A DNA stretch of 64,000 nucleotides, taken from positions 1 to 64,000 of the forward strand of contig NZ_JAIVLK010000002.1 in the NCBI RefSeq assembly GCF_020524585.1, given 5' to 3'. A program made the position numbers and the translations under genes. Below, one piece after another: positions 2,185 through 53,440 of the stretch. This stretch comes from Celeribacter naphthalenivorans. GTDB taxonomy: Bacteria; Pseudomonadota; Alphaproteobacteria; Rhodobacterales; Rhodobacteraceae. Numbering within the stretch: position 1 is the first letter of the stretch; every line of letters begins with the position of its first letter. Under the pieces are notes generated by a model, which had not been told where the DNA came from, ran no database searches, and saw only the letters and a list, made by a program, of their open reading frames with translations.

Positions 2185-5049
2185 ATGGCCGAGTTGAAAT
2201 CGATCGAAGTGCGCGGAGCGCGCGAACACAACCTCAAAGGCGTGGATGTGGACATCCCGCGCGACGAGTTGGTGGTGATCACCGGGCTGTCCGGCTCGGG
2301 TAAATCCTCGCTGGCCTTTGATACGATCTATGCAGAGGGGCAGCGGCGCTATGTCGAAAGTCTCTCGGCCTATGCGCGGCAGTTCCTCGACATGATGGGC
2401 AAGCCGGATGTGGATCACATTTCCGGTCTCAGCCCGGCGATTTCCATCGAGCAAAAGACCACGTCGAAGAACCCGCGCTCGACCGTCGGCACGGTGACGG
2501 AGATTTACGACTACCTGCGTTTGCTGTTTGCCCGCGCGGGCACGCCCTATAGCCCCACGACCGGCGAGCCGATTGAGGCGCAGCAGGTGCAAGACATGGT
2601 GGACATCACCATGCGGATGGAGGAGGGCACGCGCGGATACCTCTTGGCGCCCATCGTACGTGACCGAAAAGGCGAATATCGCAAGGAATTTCTGGAGCTT
2701 AGGAAGCAGGGATTTCAGCGCGTAAAGGTCGACGGCGAGTTCTACGACCTCGACGAGCCGCCCACGTTGGACAAGAAATTCCGCCACAATATCGACGTGG
2801 TGGTGGACCGGATCGTGGTGCGTGAGGGCTTGGAGACGCGTCTGGCGGACAGTCTTCGCACGGCTCTGGACCTGGCTGACGGGATCGCCATTTTGGAAAC
2901 TGCGCCGAAAGAGGGCGAGCCGGAGCGCATCACATTTTCCGAGAATTTCGCCTGTCCGGTGTCTGGGTTCACGATCCCTGAAATTGAACCGCGGCTGTTT
3001 TCCTTTAATGCGCCCTTCGGGGCCTGTCCGCATTGTGACGGGCTTGGTGTCGAGCTGTTCTTTGACGAACGCCTCGTGGTGCCGGATGCGGCGCTGAAAG
3101 TGGCGGATGGGGCGATTGCGCCCTGGCGCAAGGGCAAGACGCCCTATTTCCTGCAAACCATTGAGGCGCTTGCGAAACATTACGGGTTCAAACCCTCGAC
3201 GCCGTGGAAAAACTTGCCCGCCAAGGTGCAGAACATGTTCCTCTACGGCTCCGGTGAGGAAGAGATCAAATTCCGCTATGACGACGGCGGGCGGGTCTAT
3301 GAGATCGAGCGCAGCTTTGAGGGTGTGATCCCCAATATGGAGCGGCGCTATCGCGAGACCGACAGCAATTGGGTGCGCGAAGAATTCGAGCGTTACCAGA
3401 ACAACCGGCCCTGTGGCCATTGCGGCGGCTACCGCCTGCGTGAGGAGGCTCTGGCCGTTAAGATCGACCAGCATCACGTCGGGCAGGTGGTGGAGAAATC
3501 CATCAAAGAGGCGTTTCTCTGGATCGACGGGGTGATGGAGACGCTCAGCCCGCAGAAACAGGAGATCGCGCGGGCCATCGTCAAGGAAATCCGCGAGCGC
3601 TTGGGCTTTCTCAACAACGTCGGTCTCGAATACCTCACGATGAGCCGCAACGCGGGCACACTTTCGGGCGGCGAGAGCCAGCGGATTCGTCTGGCGTCGC
3701 AGATCGGCTCGGGGCTTCAGGGTGTGCTTTATGTCCTCGATGAGCCATCCATCGGCTTGCACCAGCGGGACAACGACCGGCTGATCGGCACGCTCAAGAA
3801 CCTGCGCGATCAGGGCAACACGGTGATCGTGGTCGAGCATGACGAGGACATGATCCGCGAGGCGGATTACGTCTTTGACATGGGGCCGGGCGCGGGGGTG
3901 CATGGCGGTCAGGTGGTCGCCAAAGGCACGCCGCAGGAGATCGAAGGGGACGCCGCTTCGCTCACCGGGCAATACCTGTCGGGCACGCGCGAGATCGCCG
4001 TGCCGACAGAGCGCCGCAAGGGCAATGGCAAGAAATTGACCGTGGTGAAAGCGACCGGCAACAACCTCAAAGAGGTCACCGCCGACTTCCCGCTGGGCAA
4101 ATTCGTCTGCGTTTCCGGCGTGTCGGGCGGGGGCAAATCGACGCTCACCATCGAGACACTGTATAAGACCGCTGCGACCCGTCTGAACGGCGCGCGGGAG
4201 ACGCCTGCGCCCTGCGAAACCATCAAAGGGTTTGAGCATCTCGACAAGGTGATCGACATCGACCAACGTCCCATCGGCCGCACCCCGCGGTCGAACCCGG
4301 CGACCTACACCGGCGCCTTCACCCCGATCCGCGACTGGTTTGCCGGTCTGCCGGAATCGAAAGCGCGGGGCTATAAACCGGGCCGGTTTAGTTTCAATGT
4401 CAAAGGTGGGCGTTGCGAGGCCTGTCAGGGCGACGGTGTGATCAAGATCGAGATGCATTTTCTGCCTGACGTTTACGTCGAATGCGAGACCTGTAAGGGC
4501 AAGCGCTACAATCGCGAAACTCTGGAAATTCAGTTTAAAGGCAAAAGCATAGCCGACGTTCTTGATATGACGGTCGAGGATGCGCAGGAGTTCTTTAAAG
4601 CCGTGCCGTCGATCCGCGAAAAGATGGATGCGCTGATGCGCGTGGGGCTAGGCTACATCAAAGTCGGGCAACAGGCGACGACGCTCTCGGGCGGTGAGGC
4701 GCAGCGGGTGAAGCTGTCGAAAGAGCTGGCGAAACGCTCCACCGGGCGGACGCTTTATATCCTCGACGAGCCGACCACGGGGCTGCATTTCGAGGATGTG
4801 AAAAAGCTTTTGGAAGTGCTGCACGAGCTGGTCGATCAGGGCAATTCGATGATCGTGATCGAGCACAATCTCGACGTGATCAAAACCGCAGATCATATCA
4901 TCGACATCGGTCCCGAAGGCGGTGACGGCGGCGGGCAAATTGTGGCCTCCGGCACGCCCGAAAAGGTGGCCGAGGTCGCGGCGTCCCACACCGGGCGCTA
5001 CCTCAAGCCAATGCTGGACAAAGCCGCCAGTCGGAAGGCGGCGGAATGA
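2185..5049 (+). CDS. uvrA: excinuclease ABC subunit UvrA
   Basis: 954 residues from ATG 2185 ([20 protein letters not shown]), the usual length; an open frame back to 2041 is leader sequence holding the promoter. UvrA is the damage-sensing ATPase of nucleotide excision repair, loading UvrB on distorted DNA. It has two ABC modules. Walker A motifs are GLSGSGKSS (about residue 32) and GVSGGGKST (about 645). Signatures are LSGGESQR and LSGGEAQR, and Walker B segments are YVLDEPS and YILDEPT. Zinc-finger cysteine pairs (CPHCDG, CGHCGG, CEACQG, CETCKG) are present. Its SOS box implies induction by DNA damage. The Nudix gene overlaps its stop codon. Confidence 0.97.
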
Positions 5050-5465
5050 CGGCCCCGACGATAGGAACGCCAAAACTCGCGGTGCTTGCGGTCTGTGAAC
5101 GCGACGGAAAATTCCTCATGGTCCAGCGCGGCAAAGCGCCCGCGCGCGGCTCTTGGGGCTTTCCCGGCGGGCATGTGGAATTCGGCGAGCCTCTGGCCGA
5201 GGCAGCGGTGCGCGAGCTTCATGAGGAGACCGGTGTGGTGGCGACTGCGGGTGCTGTCATCGACCATGTCGAGTTGATCGAAGCGGGGGCCTACCACTTT
5301 CTGCTCATGGCGGTGCGCTGCGACTACGTGTCTGGCGAAGCGGTCGCCGCCGACGATGCGGCGGATGTGGATTGGATGAGCCTCGACGAGCTTTTGACGA
5401 CCACGCGGGAGCTGTCACAGGACGTGACACGTGTGGCGCGGAGGGCTTTGAACTCTCAGTTATGA
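5046..5465 (+). CDS. Nudix hydrolase
   Basis: 139 residues; the ATG overlaps the uvrA stop (ATGA at 5046-5049), so the two are co-translated. The Nudix box is complete: [20 protein letters not shown] then ETGV, with the metal-binding REL-HEE glutamates. Such enzymes hydrolyse nucleoside diphosphates linked to another group; a nucleotide-pool or NDP-sugar role is possible but the substrate cannot be read. Coupling to uvrA suggests SOS co-expression. Its 3' end overlaps the convergent membrane gene by six bases. Confidence 0.85.
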
Positions 5466-15056: not shown

Positions 15057-15125
15057 GTTGAGATCATCCGCGCTTATGCCTAATCTGGCACAAAATTTGG
15101 CGTGGGCATTGGGGAGAGAGCAAGA

Positions 15126-43891: not shown

Positions 43892-44212
43892 TCAGGCGGC
43901 GAAGGGCATGCCCGTTTCGCTCATCACCATGAGCCCGTCGGCATAGATCACTTCCTCGCGCTCAAAACTCAGCTTGAATCGTTTCGGGGCAGGTGTGTCG
44001 ATTCCCAAAAGCGTCCGCATGCCCGCTCGCGTGATTACCCGGTCGCCGGGTTCGAGAAATTCGACAGGAAGGATGCCGTCGGCGGTCATCACCTTGGTGC
44101 CAAGGGGCAAGCCCTTGTCATGATTGGGTAAAATGTCACGCACGTGGAGCGATTTCGACGGATTTCTCCCGTCGTTGTGCTCATGATCGTGCCCGCTGCC
44201 TTTATAGGTCAT
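43892..44212 (-). CDS. short Hint-domain (Hedgehog/intein-like) protein
   Basis: 106 residues. After a charged His-rich N-terminus, residues about 33-100 match the start of a Hint_2 domain: LPLGTKVMTADGILPVEFLE, PGDRVITRAGMRTLLGID, then FEREEVIYADGLMVMSETG. The usual catalytic Cys/Ser at the Hint start is absent or shifted, and the domain is shorter than in secreted Rhodobacteraceae Hint proteins, so self-splicing is unlikely. Function unknown. Confidence 0.65.
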   Translation of the reverse strand: MTYKGSGHDHEHNDGRNPSKSLHVRDILPNHDKGLPLGTKVMTADGILPVEFLEPGDRVITRAGMRTLLGIDTPAPKRFKLSFEREEVIYADGLMVMSETGMPFAA

Positions 44213-44370: not shown

Positions 44371-44455
44371 GCGGGTGTGGCGAAATTGGTAGACGCACCA
44401 GATTTAGGTTCTGGCGCCGCAAGGCGTGGGGGTTCAAGTCCCTCCACCCGCACCA
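44371..44455 (+). tRNA. tRNA-Leu (anticodon UAG)
   Basis: 85 bases including an encoded CCA. Acceptor arms GCGGGTG and CACCCGC pair. The anticodon stem CCAGA/TCTGG holds loop TTTAGGT with anticodon TAG. A long variable arm (GCGCCGCAAGGCGT) marks a class II tRNA, and GGTTCAAGTCC is the T-arm. Its 3' end is shared with the recombinase gene running on the opposite strand, which marks this tRNA as the island's insertion site. Confidence 0.96.
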
Positions 44456-45981
44456 CTCTTCTTTCGAAGGGTATAAACATCCCCCAACGCCTTGAATGGC
44501 AAGGCTATTTCCGGGGTTCTAGCACCCAGTTTTCGATCATAGACAACGCGCTCTGCAAAGGCCAGTTTGGCGACCAGTCTGCGGGCATGGATGTGACCTA
44601 TTTCCCAGAGTTTCCAATGGGTTGCGGGGAAGGTCAGGACTGGTTCTAGCTTGTCTTCGAAGCTGTCTGGTTTTTGCGGTTGGTGATGCAGCGTTTCGGC
44701 CATCAACGCTTTTTGCTGTTCCAGCTCACCGATCTTCGTTTCATAGCTCTGAATCACGATGTGATTGCTGGCCGCCATGATGCGGCCCAGCAGCGTGGCG
44801 ATCTCTTTATCAATTGTCGTAATCCGCCGTTTGGCGGCATTGATGATATCCTGCGCCTGATCACGCCGCGCATTCCATGCATCGCGGAACATAGCCGTGG
44901 CCAATATCATAAGCGTGTCGGTCGGTTGCAGCGTTTTGATCAGGTCCCCAACATCCCCTTCCAGCTTGTCACGCGGGATCGACTTACCATAAGCCTCACA
45001 GCCTTTGGTCTGACAGAGATAATACGGGTAATGGCCACCTTTACCGCGTGTGATGGAGGAGCGCAAAGACGCGCCACAATAGGCACAGGTCACCATACCG
45101 CGCATAACGAAGGTCTCGCCGATGTCGGGGCGCTTCGGAGCCTTGGCAACCCCTTGGCGGCGCTCTTGCACCTTGTTGAACAGAGCCAGCGTGATCAGCG
45201 GTTCATGCTGGGCTTTGAGCTAGTTGATGCCATAGACCTCGGAGCAGTTATGCCCGGTATAGGCCGGATGGGTCAGAATGTCGGTGACACGTTGCTGTCT
45301 GATCTCGCCATTCTTGGCGCGCGGGAAGTCTGGGAATGTCTCGAAGAACCGCTTCATCTCGGCTTGTGATTGGAACCGCCCCGAGGCGTAACCTTCGAAG
45401 GCCTCCACAATGATCGAGGCCAGAGGTTCATCTCGGATCAACAGCTTGCCATGGCCTTTGACGGTTTTATAGCGATAACCGATGGGAGCATTATGGACCC
45501 AATAGCAATTGCGCATCCGGGCCGCCATTTTCTGCGAGACCTGCCGTCCATTTTGTTTGCGCTCCAACGCACCTTGTGCCGCCATGATGGTTTCGATGAA
45601 CTCGCCCTCGGGCGTGTCTTCGAACTTGAAGTTCAGGCATTCGATGGTGGCTCCTCGTGATCGAAAGGCTTCACGCAGATCGAGGTGGAAACGCGTATCA
45701 CGGGCGAAGCGTTTGAGATCATCGAAGATCACGATGAATTTTTGATCTGGCTGGGCGTCCAAGAAAGACAGCAACGCCACCATGCCGGGGCGTTTCATAA
45801 AGTCGCCGCCGCCTGTGAAGGTGTCAGGAAACACCGCCGCAACTTCATAACCTTTGGCGGCGGCAAACTCGCGACAACGGGTTTCTTGCGATTGGAGACC
45901 GTGGCCCTCGGCCTCTTGGGCACTGGAGGACACACGACAGTAAATGACGGCGGTGGGTGGCGTAGAATTCTTATTGCTCAT
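44434..45981 (-). pseudogene. large serine recombinase with in-frame amber stop
   Basis: One frame of 516 codons carries a TAG at 45220-45222 (AAC TAG CTC), splitting 253 N-terminal codons from the rest. The N-terminus is a resolvase catalytic domain (AVIYCRVSSSAQEAEGHG, with the nucleophile serine). FDDLKRFARDTRFHLDLR and GALERKQNGRQV follow, then the Recombinase domain. After the stop, homology continues without a shift: zinc ribbon (CAYCGASLRSS...CQTKGCE), a coiled coil (about 370-420) and a basic end. The last six residues (GAGGGT) and stop lie in tRNA-Leu. It is either inactive or read through. Confidence 0.85.
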
Positions 45982-46297
45982 GGTGACTCCCTTCTTCGGC
46001 CTGTGGGAGGTCTCCCAAAGACGGACTTTGTTCTTGCTGTTGCTGTGTATGCTCTGAGTTTACCACATCAGGCGAGAGCGCAGGAGATAAAGACACCTCT
46101 TGTCCACAGGCTTGCGCCAATGTGCCGCCCAGCTCGAAATCCAGATCGACAAAGCTGATCACAATAGACCAGAGCGCTTCGATCAAGGCGCGCTTTTGCT
46201 CTTCGAGAATATCACTGTCTTCGAAGAACGGCAAATAGGCGTCCCAGTCGATGGTGAGGCGGGGTTTTGTGTTGGGCGGGGAAGATGATGCGGACAT
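45971..46297 (-). CDS. small acidic protein coupled to the recombinase
   Basis: 108 residues from ATG 46295-46297, with AAGGAG seven bases upstream. It contains KPRLTIDWDAYLPFFEDSDI and KRALIEALWSIVISFVDLDFELGG, then a Gln/Ser-rich tail (HTQQQQEQSPSLG). Its stop overlaps the recombinase start by 11 bases, so they are co-translated. It may be a recombination accessory factor (inference). No family is recognised. Confidence 0.65.
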   Translation of the reverse strand: MSASSSPPNTKPRLTIDWDAYLPFFEDSDILEEQKRALIEALWSIVISFVDLDFELGGTLAQACGQEVSLSPALSPDVVNSEHTQQQQEQSPSLGDLPQAEEGSHHEQ

Positions 46298-46536
46298 GGC
46301 TGGGCTCCTTTGGCGGTTCGTGTCTCCTTTGGGTTGGGGGAAGGGCTTTGTTTCTGTGCGCGTCAATCATCGTGCCGCATGAGAACAAATATAGAACACA
46401 ATAAGATAGAAATCCTATTTCTCAAAGCGTTATTTTGACTTTTCCCAAGCAGACAGGGGTAGGATACTGGTCAAAGTCCCGCTCCTCTTGGGTCAGGGGC
46501 GGGTCAATTGGGGTAATTTATTTGAGGGGTATGTTG

Positions 46537-47166
46537 ATGACAGAAACAGAGAATGACGCTCAGGCGTTTGATTGGTCCAAGGCGAGCAACGCGGAGCGGA
46601 AGAAGCTGTTTTCCGTGACTAAAGCGATTGCTTCGGCAACCGGCACAGCGCTTGAGGTGTTGCTGAATACGGCGTTGGGACAGCCTTCCGATCATGACTG
46701 GGGCGATATGGCCAATCTGCGCAATGGCAAGCTTGCACGAGAGAAAAGCCAAAAGCTCTACGACTATCTGGCTGAACATCATTACGAGCTGGCGCAAAAG
46801 ACCAATGAGACTCTATTCCCGTTTCGGGTGGTGCGCGATGTAGAGGCCTATATTACAGAGGCAGCGCATCAAGGCCGATTACATGTCGTGCCGACGACAG
46901 ACGAACTGGGTTTGGTCAAACGCAAACGCCAGCACTTGCCACCAGATGCGGTGTTGGAACTGGGCGAAAGCTTCTGCTTAGAGTTGGATGCGATCAACCC
47001 GGGCTTTGCCGTGGCGTTCCAAGGCTACAAAGGAGAATGGCACCCTCTTCCACTTGGCGCAGACGGCGAAGAACAAGCCTGCCGGATCAAAGAAGGTATG
47101 CAGCTTCTGCCGCAAACGGCAGAGGGACAGCCCGAATCCTTGAGCGAAGACGAAGACACTGGATAG
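46537..47166 (+). CDS. hypothetical island protein, possibly truncated by an amber codon
   Basis: 209 residues from ATG 46537, with GAGGGG seven bases upstream (ATG 46531 is too close). The N-terminal half is helical (ASNAERKKLFSVTKAIASA; KLYDYLAEHHYELAQKTNE), and the second half has strands (LGESFCLELDAINPGFAVAF). It ends at TAG 47164-47166. The same frame stays open for 39 more codons (HHFLILTARNRYHLMNQGKL ... VEVKAT) to TAA 47284-47286. That extension has coding-like codon use and nearly meets the convergent peptidase. No family is recognised. Confidence 0.6.
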   Translation: MTETENDAQAFDWSKASNAERKKLFSVTKAIASATGTALEVLLNTALGQPSDHDWGDMANLRNGKLAREKSQKLYDYLAEHHYELAQKTNETLFPFRVVRDVEAYITEAAHQGRLHVVPTTDELGLVKRKRQHLPPDAVLELGESFCLELDAINPGFAVAFQGYKGEWHPLPLGADGEEQACRIKEGMQLLPQTAEGQPESLSEDEDTG

Positions 47167-47272: not shown

Positions 47273-48271
47273 TTAAGGCGACGTAATCGACAATAGTGGT
47301 AGGATTTTGACGTTGGTCGCCACCAAGCGCGCCCATTCTCGCGCGCCATTGGTTTGCAGATCAGGAAAACGCGCCACATCCCCGCGCCTGGCGATGCCAA
47401 TATCTTCGAAAAATGGCGTGGGATCGCCCAGATCATTGCGAATGGTCGGGACATCGGCAACACGGGCCAAGGTGACCGCATCAAGAAAAGTCGGAATGAC
47501 CACCTGAGTGCGAAACGCCGCTTTTTCTTCCTCAGAGGGCAGGTCTTCGGCGCGGACGGTCTCACCTCGCTCTGCGGCCAACATCCGCGCCGGGATCGAC
47601 CACATCTCGGAGAGATGCCCCAGAAGCTGGTATATCCGTGTTGCGGCCAGAGGATGCGTGGTGTGATGTGTTCCACTCGCCAAATCCTGCCGTTCGATCA
47701 ACACCATCACCGCCGAAATACAGGCAGCCCGGACGCGCAACTCATCCCAGTGATCGGGAGAATAAGCATCCAGCAGGTATTCGATGGCTTCATGATCGGC
47801 TTGCAGCTCAAGACAGGGCTGCACCTTGAGACGGTTTTGTTCGGGGAGTTTATGCCACCAGTCAGGCTTGCGAGACGAAGTGCGCTGCACGAGATCGAAT
47901 TGTGCAGGCACGGCCCCTTCGGTCAGGGCTTGGGTCCGGCCCAAGTCGAAATGGCCGAGCGTGTAATGCTCTAGCTCATGCATGATCAGCCATGACATGG
48001 AGATCGAGGTCAGCCAGTCGATATCATCGACAATGGCGCTGCCGTCTGGACCGCGAAACAGACCGTCATCCAACCCGCCTTTCCACAATGCGCGGAGCTG
48101 TGCTTCGCAGCCGGTGCTTACGGTGATGGAGGGAATGCCGTTTGGTCGTGAGACGACAGCCCAGAACCCATCGTCTGGTTGGGCCTTGATTTCGGGCTCT
48201 GGCTCATAGGGTGTGCCCATGACTTCGGCGATTTGGGTAAGGGCAATTTGGAGCGGTGCAAAATTATGCAT
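47273..48271 (-). CDS. zinc-metallopeptidase-like protein (HExxH)
   Basis: 332 residues. SWLIMHELEHYTLGHFDLG (about residue 95) holds an HExxH zinc motif. ELQADHEAIEYLLDA, about 60 residues later, supplies a plausible third ligand Glu. The pair HExxH...ELxAD is seen in M48-type and Lit/U49-like peptidases; Lit is a phage-exclusion protease, so a defence role is an attractive guess. No membrane helix is visible, so the protein is probably cytoplasmic. The convergent 46537 gene, including its read-through extension, ends against it. Confidence 0.7.
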   Translation of the reverse strand: MHNFAPLQIALTQIAEVMGTPYEPEPEIKAQPDDGFWAVVSRPNGIPSITVSTGCEAQLRALWKGGLDDGLFRGPDGSAIVDDIDWLTSISMSWLIMHELEHYTLGHFDLGRTQALTEGAVPAQFDLVQRTSSRKPDWWHKLPEQNRLKVQPCLELQADHEAIEYLLDAYSPDHWDELRVRAACISAVMVLIERQDLASGTHHTTHPLAATRIYQLLGHLSEMWSIPARMLAAERGETVRAEDLPSEEEKAAFRTQVVIPTFLDAVTLARVADVPTIRNDLGDPTPFFEDIGIARRGDVARFPDLQTNGAREWARLVATNVKILPLLSITSP

Positions 48272-51802: not shown

Positions 51803-52099
51803 ATGATGTCGAAACGGAAGCAGCATTCGCCTGAGTTTAAGGCGAAGGTGGCGCTTGAAGCGCTGAAGGGGGAACGGACGGTGGCTGAGCTGGCGAACCT
51901 GTTCGGGATTCACCTGACGATGATCCACATCTGGAAGTGGGCGTTGCTTGAAGGCGCATCCGGCGTGTTCGAACGTGGTAGCAAGAAAGTCCCCGAGATT
52001 GACGAGGAGCAAGTTAAAGAGCTGCACGCCAAGATCGGGGAGCTGGCTGTGGCCAACGATTTGTTGTCACGAAAGCTCAAACCGTGGACCGGCAAGTGA
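51803..52099 (+). CDS. IS3-family transposase OrfA
   Basis: 98 residues. HTH_Tnp_1/IS3 OrfA: KRKQHSPEFKAKVALEALKG, then GERTVAELANLFGIHLTMIH as the helix-turn-helix, and a C-terminal leucine-zipper-like helix (EEQVKELHAKIGELAVANDL). It binds the IS ends. It overlaps orfB by 16 bases; a programmed frameshift could fuse the two into OrfAB. Confidence 0.9.
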   Translation: MMSKRKQHSPEFKAKVALEALKGERTVAELANLFGIHLTMIHIWKWALLEGASGVFERGSKKVPEIDEEQVKELHAKIGELAVANDLLSRKLKPWTGK

Positions 52100-52968
52100 G
52101 GCGGAAGATGGTTGAACCCGCCAATCCTGACCTGTCCATCGGCAAGCAGTGCAAGCTGCTGTCGCTCTCGCGGTCGTCGTTCTACTACACGCCCAAAGGC
52201 GAGACCGAGCAGAGCCTTGGCCTGATGAGGCGGATCAATGAGCAGTTTCTGGAAACGCCGTTCTTCGGTGTCCGCCAGATGACGTGGCACCTGCGCAACG
52301 ACGGCCATTTGGTGAACGAGAAACGGATACGACGGCTGATGCGCCTGATGGGGCTGATGCCGATCTACCAAAAGCCCAACACCAGCAAGGCGGCGAAGGG
52401 GCACAAGACGTATCCCTATCTGCTGAGAGGTCTGCGGGTGGAGCGTCCGAACCAAGTTTGGTGCTCGGATATTACCTATCTGCCCATGCGCCGAGGGTTT
52501 CTGTATCTGGTCGCCATTATGGATTGGCACACCCGTAAGGTGCTGGCTTGGCGCATCTCGAACACGCTGGAGGCGGACTTCTGCGTTGAGGCACTGAACG
52601 AGGCCATCCACAAGTTTGGTCCGCCGGAGATCATGAATACTGACCAAGGATCTCAGTTCACATCTTTTGCCTGGACGGATCGGCTGCGCCGGACCGGCGT
52701 CCGCATCTCGATGGATGGCAAGGGCGTTCGCAAGCTCACCCTCGACAATATCTTCATTGAGCGGCTGTGGCGAACCCTGAAATACGAGTGCGTCTACCTG
52801 CATGCCTGGGAGACCGGATCAGAAGCGAAGGCAGGCATCCGGAAATGGATGACCTTCTACAACAACCAACGCCCACACTCAGCCCTTGGCGGTAGGCCTC
52901 CAGCCGTGGTCTATTGGCTGAGAAATGACAAAACCCAACCCGATCAGCAGGAGCAGAGAGTAGCTTAA
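52084..52968 (+). CDS. IS3-family transposase OrfB (DDE)
   Basis: 294 residues. The N-terminal HTH_21 region (SLGLMRRINEQFLETPFFG, then NEKRIRRLMRLMGL) precedes an rve integrase core with D in WCSDITYLPM, D in MNTDQGSQFTS and E in LDNIFIERLWRTLKYE-type context. All three catalytic acids are present, so it should be active. The end NNQRPHSALGGRPPA is typical of the family. Confidence 0.92.
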   Translation: MDRQVRRKMVEPANPDLSIGKQCKLLSLSRSSFYYTPKGETEQSLGLMRRINEQFLETPFFGVRQMTWHLRNDGHLVNEKRIRRLMRLMGLMPIYQKPNTSKAAKGHKTYPYLLRGLRVERPNQVWCSDITYLPMRRGFLYLVAIMDWHTRKVLAWRISNTLEADFCVEALNEAIHKFGPPEIMNTDQGSQFTSFAWTDRLRRTGVRISMDGKGVRKLTLDNIFIERLWRTLKYECVYLHAWETGSEAKAGIRKWMTFYNNQRPHSALGGRPPAVVYWLRNDKTQPDQQEQRVA

Positions 52969-53007: not shown

Positions 53008-53440
53008 CTGATTGGGGATGCCCACCGAAAAGGCCGACGCCCTGATGCCCGAGAGGACCTCTGTGTGCTCACTGTGACAGTTTTCTTTTTTAAATCCATG
53101 CTCTGAGGGACGTCCACCAAAGATGTAAGTGTTGCACACTGACATTTAAAGAAGCGGAACTTAACCTTCGCGCTTCGAAGGCCTGCGTTCGGAGACCGAC
53201 TGCCTGCCCAATTATGTGCGTTTTCTGTGCCTCGGTTATCGGGTGTGACGTCTTGGCTGTCCATTTTGCATAGCCCGTTCCCCGGAACGGGGCGTCGCAG
53301 GGGGAATTGCGAGCCGACAGGCGCAAATGCAGGCGGAATAGCCTTGCGCGATAGGGATTCTGCCCCTAGAAGAGCGTCTGATTTATCAGGTCGCGGTCCA
53401 GCGGCCGGAAGAGACGTAAGAACGTAAAAAGGACGCCAAG
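53008..53440. other. 433-base region between the IS element and tig
   Basis: No convincing gene. GCCCCGTTCC-type bases around 53275-53295 form a hairpin (CCCGTTCC with GGAACGGG). The last 100 bases presumably carry the tig promoter and leader; AAAAAGGA precedes the tig ATG. It should contain the right island border, but no tRNA-Leu repeat was seen. Confidence 0.4.

Follow-up and report, generated by a model that had tools for sequence, protein, structure and literature searches.

A decayed integrative element at a tRNA-Leu gene of Celeribacter naphthalenivorans and a tRNA-associated family of large serine recombinases with a probable attachment site inside the recombinase gene

A serine recombinase gene of Celeribacter naphthalenivorans ends inside a tRNA-Leu gene, and its last codons are antisense to the 3' end of the tRNA. 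This raises the question whether two genes happen to lie too close together, or whether the recombinase integrates at the tRNA, and, if so, which parts of the tRNA and of the recombinase belong to the host and which to the element. The analyzed window is the whole stretch of 64,000 nucleotides (positions 1 to 64,000 of contig NZ_JAIVLK010000002.1). The junction of tRNA and recombinase comprises the following features:

44371..44455, plus strand: tRNA-Leu (anticodon UAG), the host attB gene; its antisense encodes the last codons of the recombinase (ARAGORN; Rfam tRNA, 57.4 bits)
44450..44455, plus strand: GCACCA, the tRNA 3' end; core of about 6 bp that is repeated at the far end in relatives (comparison with relatives, window sequence)
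44456..44479, minus strand: part of the element that adjoins the tRNA, presumably an attP half-site, encoding the last residues of the recombinase's own (element-conserved block ending at TGGTG in relatives)
44434..45219, minus strand: C-terminal part of the recombinase with zinc ribbon PF13408; TGA in the T-loop
45220..45222, minus strand: in-frame TAG that breaks the recombinase; all 78 aligned relatives have a sense codon here
45223..45981, minus strand: N-terminal part of the recombinase, Resolvase PF00239; extends into the region of the Recombinase domain of the relatives

The recombinase end and the element in the window

The original prediction had placed the end of the minus-strand recombinase frame at the TGA 44434-44436 in the T-loop of the tRNA, and the tRNA position found with ARAGORN and Rfam is in agreement with this. 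The T-loop sequence TTCAAGT occupies 44433-44439, and, thus, the stop codon lies in the T-loop. Also as predicted, the final six codons of the recombinase (G-A-G-G-G-T) are the antisense of the acceptor and T arms, and the window sequence verified that the last codons as well as the stop are drawn from the tRNA gene. The end position of the frame was therefore correct, but the frame is not unbroken: the in-frame TAG at 45220-45222, which had been overlooked, divides it into an ORF of 253 aa with the Resolvase domain and an ORF of 245 aa with the zinc ribbon. Pfam revealed no match to the Recombinase domain in either piece of the split frame. A sister copy in genome G018 has a sense codon at the position of the TAG. 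Directly left of the tRNA, a short ORF with a Hint domain is present (window 43892-44212), and the match comprises only the first part of the domain.

To the right of the recombinase, the window contains these further features:

45971..46366, minus strand: candidate for a directionality factor, a conserved small ORF that overlaps with the start of the recombinase (single-linkage cluster, 48 of 77 loci)
46435..47166, plus strand: conserved divergent element ORF, possible regulator (single-linkage cluster, 19 of 77 loci)
47273..48271, minus strand: cargo, putative Lit-like metallopeptidase of the phage exclusion type, weak profile match (PADLOC Lit, E 4.4e-8; NCBIfam, E 9e-4), no Pfam match
52084..52968, plus strand: IS3-family transposase near the right end (NF033516, E 8.9e-82)
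53321..53340, no strand: place where the window begins to match the chromosome to the right of the G016 empty site; right-hand boundary of the insertion

The comparison with an empty tRNA-Leu locus in related genomes, proposed together with the prediction, was performed, and genome G016 supplied the empty site. On the left, G016 agrees with the window up to 44456, and on the right its flank restarts at window position 53321 after about 160 bp, which indicates an insertion of nearly 9 kb. Most congeners have kept the left flank as far as the tRNA end. Remnants of the same element were found at the same tRNA in G018 and G006. The former has retained the C-terminal half of the recombinase, and the latter is an end fragment that lies beyond another 16-kb insertion, which separates it from the tRNA.

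The far end of the element was searched for with the two far-end markers of the relatives, a C-terminal recombinase tail and a relaxase (see below). The leading 164 kb of the contig contained no relaxase and no convincing tail, and the tail search in the whole genome yielded a best E value of 0.61, on another contig, which was not a tail. The recombinase carries a stop codon and the far end is lost, and therefore the window copy is a decayed, dead element that cannot move on its own. The IS3-family transposase may have caused the loss of the distal end.

The tRNA-Leu gene at 44371-44455 is a hot spot for insertions: a second piece of the tRNA 3' end is found at a distance of 16-35 kb in the congeners G006, G004, G019, G002, and G013, and G008 has a second, 55-nt piece of the tRNA-Leu on another contig.

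tRNA genes as sites of the recombinase family

The first 253 aa of the window recombinase were used as query for a family search, which revealed matches in 41 of 101 genomes, C. naphthalenivorans included. The loci that were examined further numbered 92, i.e., 12 from the search of the 101 genomes (including the window) and the best 80 of 153 in the genome collection. A complete antisense tRNA was present at the recombinase end in 79 of the 92 loci, with 20 types of anticodons. The remaining 13 had only a 3' fragment of a tRNA (L017, L022, L026, L041, L042, L058, L084, and L088) or were cut by the contig end at or near this place (L012, L025, L028, L044, and L070); L028 and L070 were impossible to judge. 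The same recombinase at a site other than a tRNA, which would have spoken against the prediction, was looked for and was found in none of the 90 loci that could be judged. At one locus, L079, ARAGORN called three successive copies of a tRNA-Thr(GGT) at the recombinase end.

The way in which the recombinase frame meets the tRNA differs among the 79 loci. It stops inside the tRNA in 39 cases and reads through it in 29, eight frames are broken earlier, two stop less than 60 nt ahead of the tRNA, and one is open to the end of the locus. Among the 39 stops inside the tRNA, the end of the stop codon is the 22nd nucleotide from the tRNA 3' end in 14 cases, as in the window, the 38th in 11 cases, and the 65th in six cases. 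The codons made of antisense tRNA contained no conserved sequence beyond that which tRNAs have in common.

The overlap in the window might be a trivial coincidence, in which a dead recombinase reads into an adjacent tRNA gene and ends with a meaningless tail. The TAG and the lost far end of the window copy fit to this view, and so do the 29 frames that pass right through the tRNA, which indicate that no particular host tail is kept. Yet coincidence does not account for tRNA adjacency at so many loci and anticodon types, nor for the conservation of a real tail at the opposite element end (see below). Because the same overlap recurs across the family, it is no chance event, and the explanation by coincidence, which is already disfavoured by the family pattern, is hardly tenable.

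The Resolvase, Recombinase, and Zn-ribbon domains were all above the cut-off in the five relatives that were scanned, and by this domain content the family can be assigned, on the sequence level, to the large serine recombinases. As a control, 20 of the weaker matches from the search of the 101 genomes were analyzed, which have 23-29% identity. The rule applied to the family found a tRNA at the end in three of the 20: L208 and L212 overlap with one, and in L226 it is 212 nt away. Outside the rule, the tRNA of L222 lies inside an over-long frame, and that of L211 follows 500 nt further on. The tRNAs at or near L208, L212, L222, and L226 are of the types Arg, Ser, Ser, and Gln, respectively, and, thus, the tRNA habit may extend beyond the family. 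The tRNA end is typical of the family, with some spread outside, and the edge of the family is not sharp. The homologues in phages and plasmids were all distant, with 86 and 44 records, respectively, and identities below 60% throughout; IMG/VR contributed one locus, and the records of the family are mostly alphaproteobacterial.

Pairs of closely related recombinases were used to locate the end of the element at the tRNA. L083 and L085 encode recombinases with 99.0% identity over 507 aa, and the adjoining stretch up to the tRNA agrees at 45 of 45 positions. TGGTGC is common to both, and the tRNA letters diverge from the seventh base on. Further pairs are L019 (tRNA-Thr) and L054 (tRNA-Leu) with 95.8% identity of the recombinases, L035 (Leu) and L038 (Arg) with 94.3%, L046 and L051 (two tRNA-Leu) with 94.8%, and L075 and L076 (two tRNA-Ala) with 97.8%. 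In the near-identical pairs the identity stops at TGGTG. A quick tree with 78 rows requires 21 changes of the tRNA isotype and 35 changes of the anticodon; it contains 78 of the 79 proteins (L078 was omitted for its stops), and 21 of its 75 inner branches have a support below 80%. As near-identical pairs diverge at the CCA end and as the tree needs 21 isotype changes, the element stops at the CCA end of the tRNA, the acceptor arm is that of the host, and the enzyme has moved between tRNA genes.

These results also settle the origin of the tRNA. It had been proposed that integration supplied a working tRNA, and this could not be confirmed, the identity of the elements ending at the terminal CCA region of the tRNA. 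At the empty site of G016 the tRNA ends in the same 25 nt, and an identical 85-nt tRNA exists in G005 and G013, in both of which no recombinase of the family was found; the 3' end in G013 is weaker evidence because another insertion sits at this tRNA. The matches in G016 (25 nt) and in G005 and G013 (all 85 nt), together with near-identical recombinases that occupy different tRNAs up to the CCA end, show that the tRNA belongs to the host.

Classical tRNA islands are built differently. There, crossover in the T-loop or the anticodon loop lets the element bring the 3' part of the tRNA and rebuild the gene, as islands with tyrosine integrases do. Ten loci look like this at first sight, as they have a tRNA 3' fragment that reaches to the T-loop or the anticodon loop and no 5' half beside the recombinase (L017, L022, L026, L041, L042, L058, L084, L088, L044, and L195). 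L041 was counted as a fragment because Rfam found neither a tRNA nor an intron there at the gathering score; an intron-containing tRNA was, thus, rejected for this locus. The fragments are best read as later insertions between the tRNA and the element. A tyrosine integrase gene is present beside or near the fragment in L022, L088, and L017, and a second element can therefore explain such fragments. For L026, L042, L058, L084, and L195 the same explanation may apply; no integrase was found in the one or two nearby ORFs that were scanned, and these five count in favour of the classical island. An insertion between tRNA and element remnant is also seen in G006, as described above.

An element that brings the tRNA 3' part should be accompanied by a displaced tRNA end. 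With up to 3 mismatches allowed, the 25-nt tRNA end was not found anywhere else in the C. naphthalenivorans genome, and no tRNA 3' fragment was detected in ten Thr-type genomes at E 0.01, in a search that would let fragments below about 20 nt escape and that missed the element's own tRNA in three genomes (those of L029, L045, and L059). One observation points in the other direction: L062 contains a 26-nt direct repeat (5040-5065), located 4.5 kb away from its tRNA-Ala, of which 22 nt correspond to the end of this tRNA. It is longer than the proposed core and could be the trace of another element, which is an unproved reading; the ORF beside it is presumably TetR-like. Acceptor arms that are unrelated between 99%-identical elements argue against the classical scheme. 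Crossover in the T-loop or anticodon loop by the serine enzyme was rejected, because the identity of the pairs ends at the CCA and tyrosine integrases lie beside some of the fragments, and we consider a classical island improbable for this family.

The far end of the elements and the C-terminal tail

The far ends of the elements in G101, G102, G103, and G104 were located by the break of homology before any motif was applied. The breaks are at 15,085, 25,256, 19,699, and 18,342 bp from the tRNA, respectively. All four far ends have the sequence GTGCACCA, followed by differing host DNA, and the attL/tRNA junction is GCACCA. From the core on, and on the strand of the recombinase, the phase of the recombinase is open for 59-62 codons, and both other phases run into a stop after at most 11 codons. 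The open phase encodes a shared peptide (...LLENLEDWERYLQSDPE...LRGPRP in G103), which is followed by a stop.

A far end was located in 14 relatives, and in each about 6 bp of the tRNA end are repeated and then a tail of 38-66 residues follows. In these relatives of the window copy the far-end tails carry on the recombinase frame beyond the core, a trait of the Mx8/rumA type. In 13 of the 14, only 6-8 nt of the tRNA recur at the far end, and G022b has one mismatch at position 4. Four of the core bases were fixed in the search pattern; of the two free ones, attL and attR have the same base at position 4 in 13 and at position 6 in all 14 of the elements. Two Ser-type elements share 8 nt of the tRNA at the far end.

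A three-frame scan showed that 10 of 10 tails are in the phase of the recombinase. An earlier in-phase filter had skipped loci without a simple-motif frame match, and it was replaced by tblastn without any frame rule (79 sequences, i.e., 77 plus G007 and G018; E 0.05). In this analysis 14 of 15 tails were in phase and open, seven in each of two phases (G007, G018, G022a, G022b, G026, G044, G069, G087, G101, G102, G103, G104, G106, and L032). These are not 14 independent events, as G101-G104 are close relatives and likewise G007 and G044, and several of the tail queries had first been picked by the in-phase filter, with the exception of G026 and G087. Three weak matches on the opposite strand were dropped (G106, L064, and L075; E 0.022-0.030). 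The one out-of-phase tail, L059, lies beside the recombinase in a decayed tandem array and was counted against the main reading.

The number of tails has to be related to the length of the sequences: 62 of the 77 extend less than 10 kb past the tRNA, so most of the 79 could show no far end. Among the elements with at least 27 kb a tail was found in 12 of 13, and the other two of the 14 are G018 and L032. No tail was found in G025, G039, and G107 (14-19 kb of sequence), in G110 (less than 4 kb), and in G050, the thirteenth of the long elements, which has 38% identity, no tRNA found in its stretch, and was outside the tblastn set. A tail search in 295 genomes of the family produced 11 matches in 10 genomes at E 0.01. 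Nine of them are tail-like, with a TGGYG core at or just ahead of the match; L203 and L205 were rejected as unrelated on inspection. The L202 tail looks damaged, with a stop between core and tail, and that of L196 is identical to the query.

In L059 (6980-7300), a degenerate second recombinase end runs into the tail of the other phase, which represents the tandem remains. The first 14 nt of this tail are identical to the tRNA-Thr end, and mimicry of the tRNA by tail DNA may extend past the core.

The tail has no conserved start codon, and in five of the 14 there is no ATG, GTG, or TTG before the conserved tryptophan position; one of the five, G087, has neither the tryptophan nor any start codon throughout. 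The dN/dS values of the tails in seven pairs were 0.38, 0.46, 0.55, 0.21, 0.16, 0.24, and 0.05, which indicates that the peptide is under selection. In all 14 elements the tail is succeeded by a relaxase homologue of the same orientation, which is no more than 0.5 kb away in 13 and about 4 kb away in G069. In both elements that were scanned, Pfam identified a relaxase and a type IV coupling protein. Members in which both ends are present resemble integrative mobilizable elements and measure about 9 to 29 kb; the G018 element is decayed and has 4.0 kb. Concerning the cargo, a SIR2-STALD protein and an ArdA antirestriction protein are encoded in a 15-kb two-ended element (L173, 4143-7373), and Pfam gives this pair for G101.

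The far-end ORF might be an independent small gene and not a recombinase tail; it would then lie close to attR either fortuitously or because it regulates the relaxase. Its position beside the relaxase gene in all 14 elements would suit such a gene, and in the integrated state it is indeed apart from the recombinase. However, an independent gene would not be expected to start at the core without a conserved start, and five of the 14 lack any of the three start codons where one would be needed. Nor would it track the phase of each recombinase, with seven elements of one kind and seven of the other. In addition, the DNA ahead of the core varies between the elements. Altogether there is little chance that the ORF is an independent gene.

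A recombinase tail is the preferred reading. As the far end repeats the core and continues with an in-phase, selected tail without conserved start and then with the relaxase, attP appears to lie inside the recombinase gene. We regard it as very probable that the window contains a decayed integrative element of a family that integrates at the 3' (CCA) end of tRNA genes, carries attP inside the recombinase coding sequence, and swaps the tail of the enzyme on integration. In the circle, the recombinase would read across the 6-bp core (antisense TGGYGS) into the C-terminal tail of 38-66 residues, and recombinase and tail would be one gene, followed by the relaxase gene on the same strand. Integration would cut the recombinase gene at attP and part the tail from the enzyme. 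The chromosome would then encode a shortened recombinase that finishes in antisense-tRNA codons of the host, and the tail, which has no conserved start codon, would be stranded at the far end. Should translation of the tail depend on its being joined, selection on it must act in the circular state. A motif scan of the sequences examined found no joined recombinase-tail ORF, and no circular form was seen in them; the circular form, its full-length protein, and an influence of the tail change on activity or direction are predicted from the arrangement of the two ends. The original prediction that excision would change the tail of the protein holds as an expectation, and the relatives add the details. 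For the window copy it is moot, since a stop interrupts its recombinase gene and the att site of the far end has been lost.

Known systems and the meaning of the tail exchange

Integrases with an attachment site inside their own gene are known from several systems. Mx8 is a phage of Myxococcus that uses a tRNA gene, and its integrase is known as IntP/IntX; Tojo 1996 is said to be the paper on Mx8 IntP/IntX. According to PMC4701971, attP of Mx8 lies inside the integrase gene, and integration replaces a C-terminus of 112 residues by 13 residues, which yields a less active enzyme (Magrini 1999, cited therein). Mx8 has a tyrosine recombinase of a phage, whereas the family described here consists of large serine recombinases of mobilizable elements. 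The same source describes streptococcal ICEs at rumA with a single serine integrase and an att site inside its own gene, at which integration swaps the 3' parts and alters the C-terminus of the integrase, with short repeats of 2-21 bp (PMC4701971). The internal att site in a serine integrase gene and the change of the C-terminus on integration are alike in both. The rumA ICEs have a protein gene of Streptococcus as target, and the exchange changes the frame of both proteins (PMC4701971); in contrast, the present family uses the CCA end of many tRNAs, leaves the tRNA intact, and has a conserved tail that is in phase and would be added in the circle.

The archaeal "suicidal" tyrosine integrases of the SSV type also have the target site in their own gene, which is split upon integration, as stated in PMC8371274. 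In contrast to that split, which separates the catalytic domain, the present family loses only the C-terminal tail, and the three domains of the large serine recombinase stay together. The Paracoccus phage vB_PamS_Pami6 has a serine recombinase with a predicted tRNA-Met(CAT) target (PMC6536676). Compared by description, it resembles the family in having a serine recombinase and a predicted tRNA target in an alphaproteobacterium; it is a single phage, and the available text of PMC6536676 does not mention an internal attP.

NCBIfam gave matches to CcrB/CcrC of SCCmec, far under the equivalog cut-offs (54.9 versus 900 bits). The SCCmec recombinases target rlmH, and their insertion is at the extreme 3' end of a conserved gene. 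The likeness lies in a large serine recombinase and a distant similarity of the catalytic domain, but target and arrangement differ. The tRNA/tmRNA islands of Islander have, by definition, the tRNA at one end, a displaced tRNA fragment at the other end, and a tyrosine integrase. The present elements differ from this definition, with a serine recombinase and a far end that repeats only 6-8 nt (13 of 14).

Internal att sites have already been published for serine integrases (rumA) and for a tyrosine case (Mx8). Among the titles and abstract openings that were searched, with subscription papers and preprints lying outside, none described serine recombinases that exchange their tail at the ends of a wide range of tRNAs. 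In PMC4383910 serine integrases are said not to specify tRNA genes, and the presence of a serine recombinase family at 20 anticodon types contrasts with this statement.

The tail swap might be a built-in state sensor, a proposal to which we give an even chance. Only the circle would make the long recombinase and a co-oriented transcript of recombinase, tail, and relaxase, and only the chromosome would make the short form with the host tail. The tail would set the direction: the long form would integrate, and the short form would be locked or would excise in dependence on an RDF. It would also couple excision to conjugative transfer. The CCA-end core, which is common to many tRNAs, would let one enzyme jump between tRNA genes.

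An enzyme that is apparently shortened and re-tailed at each integration offers a direct genetic test of the role of the tail in direction control. Serine integrases are tools of genome engineering, for which the contribution of the C-terminal tail to direction control is a question of interest. The CCA-end core is, in addition, of interest as a portable landing site.
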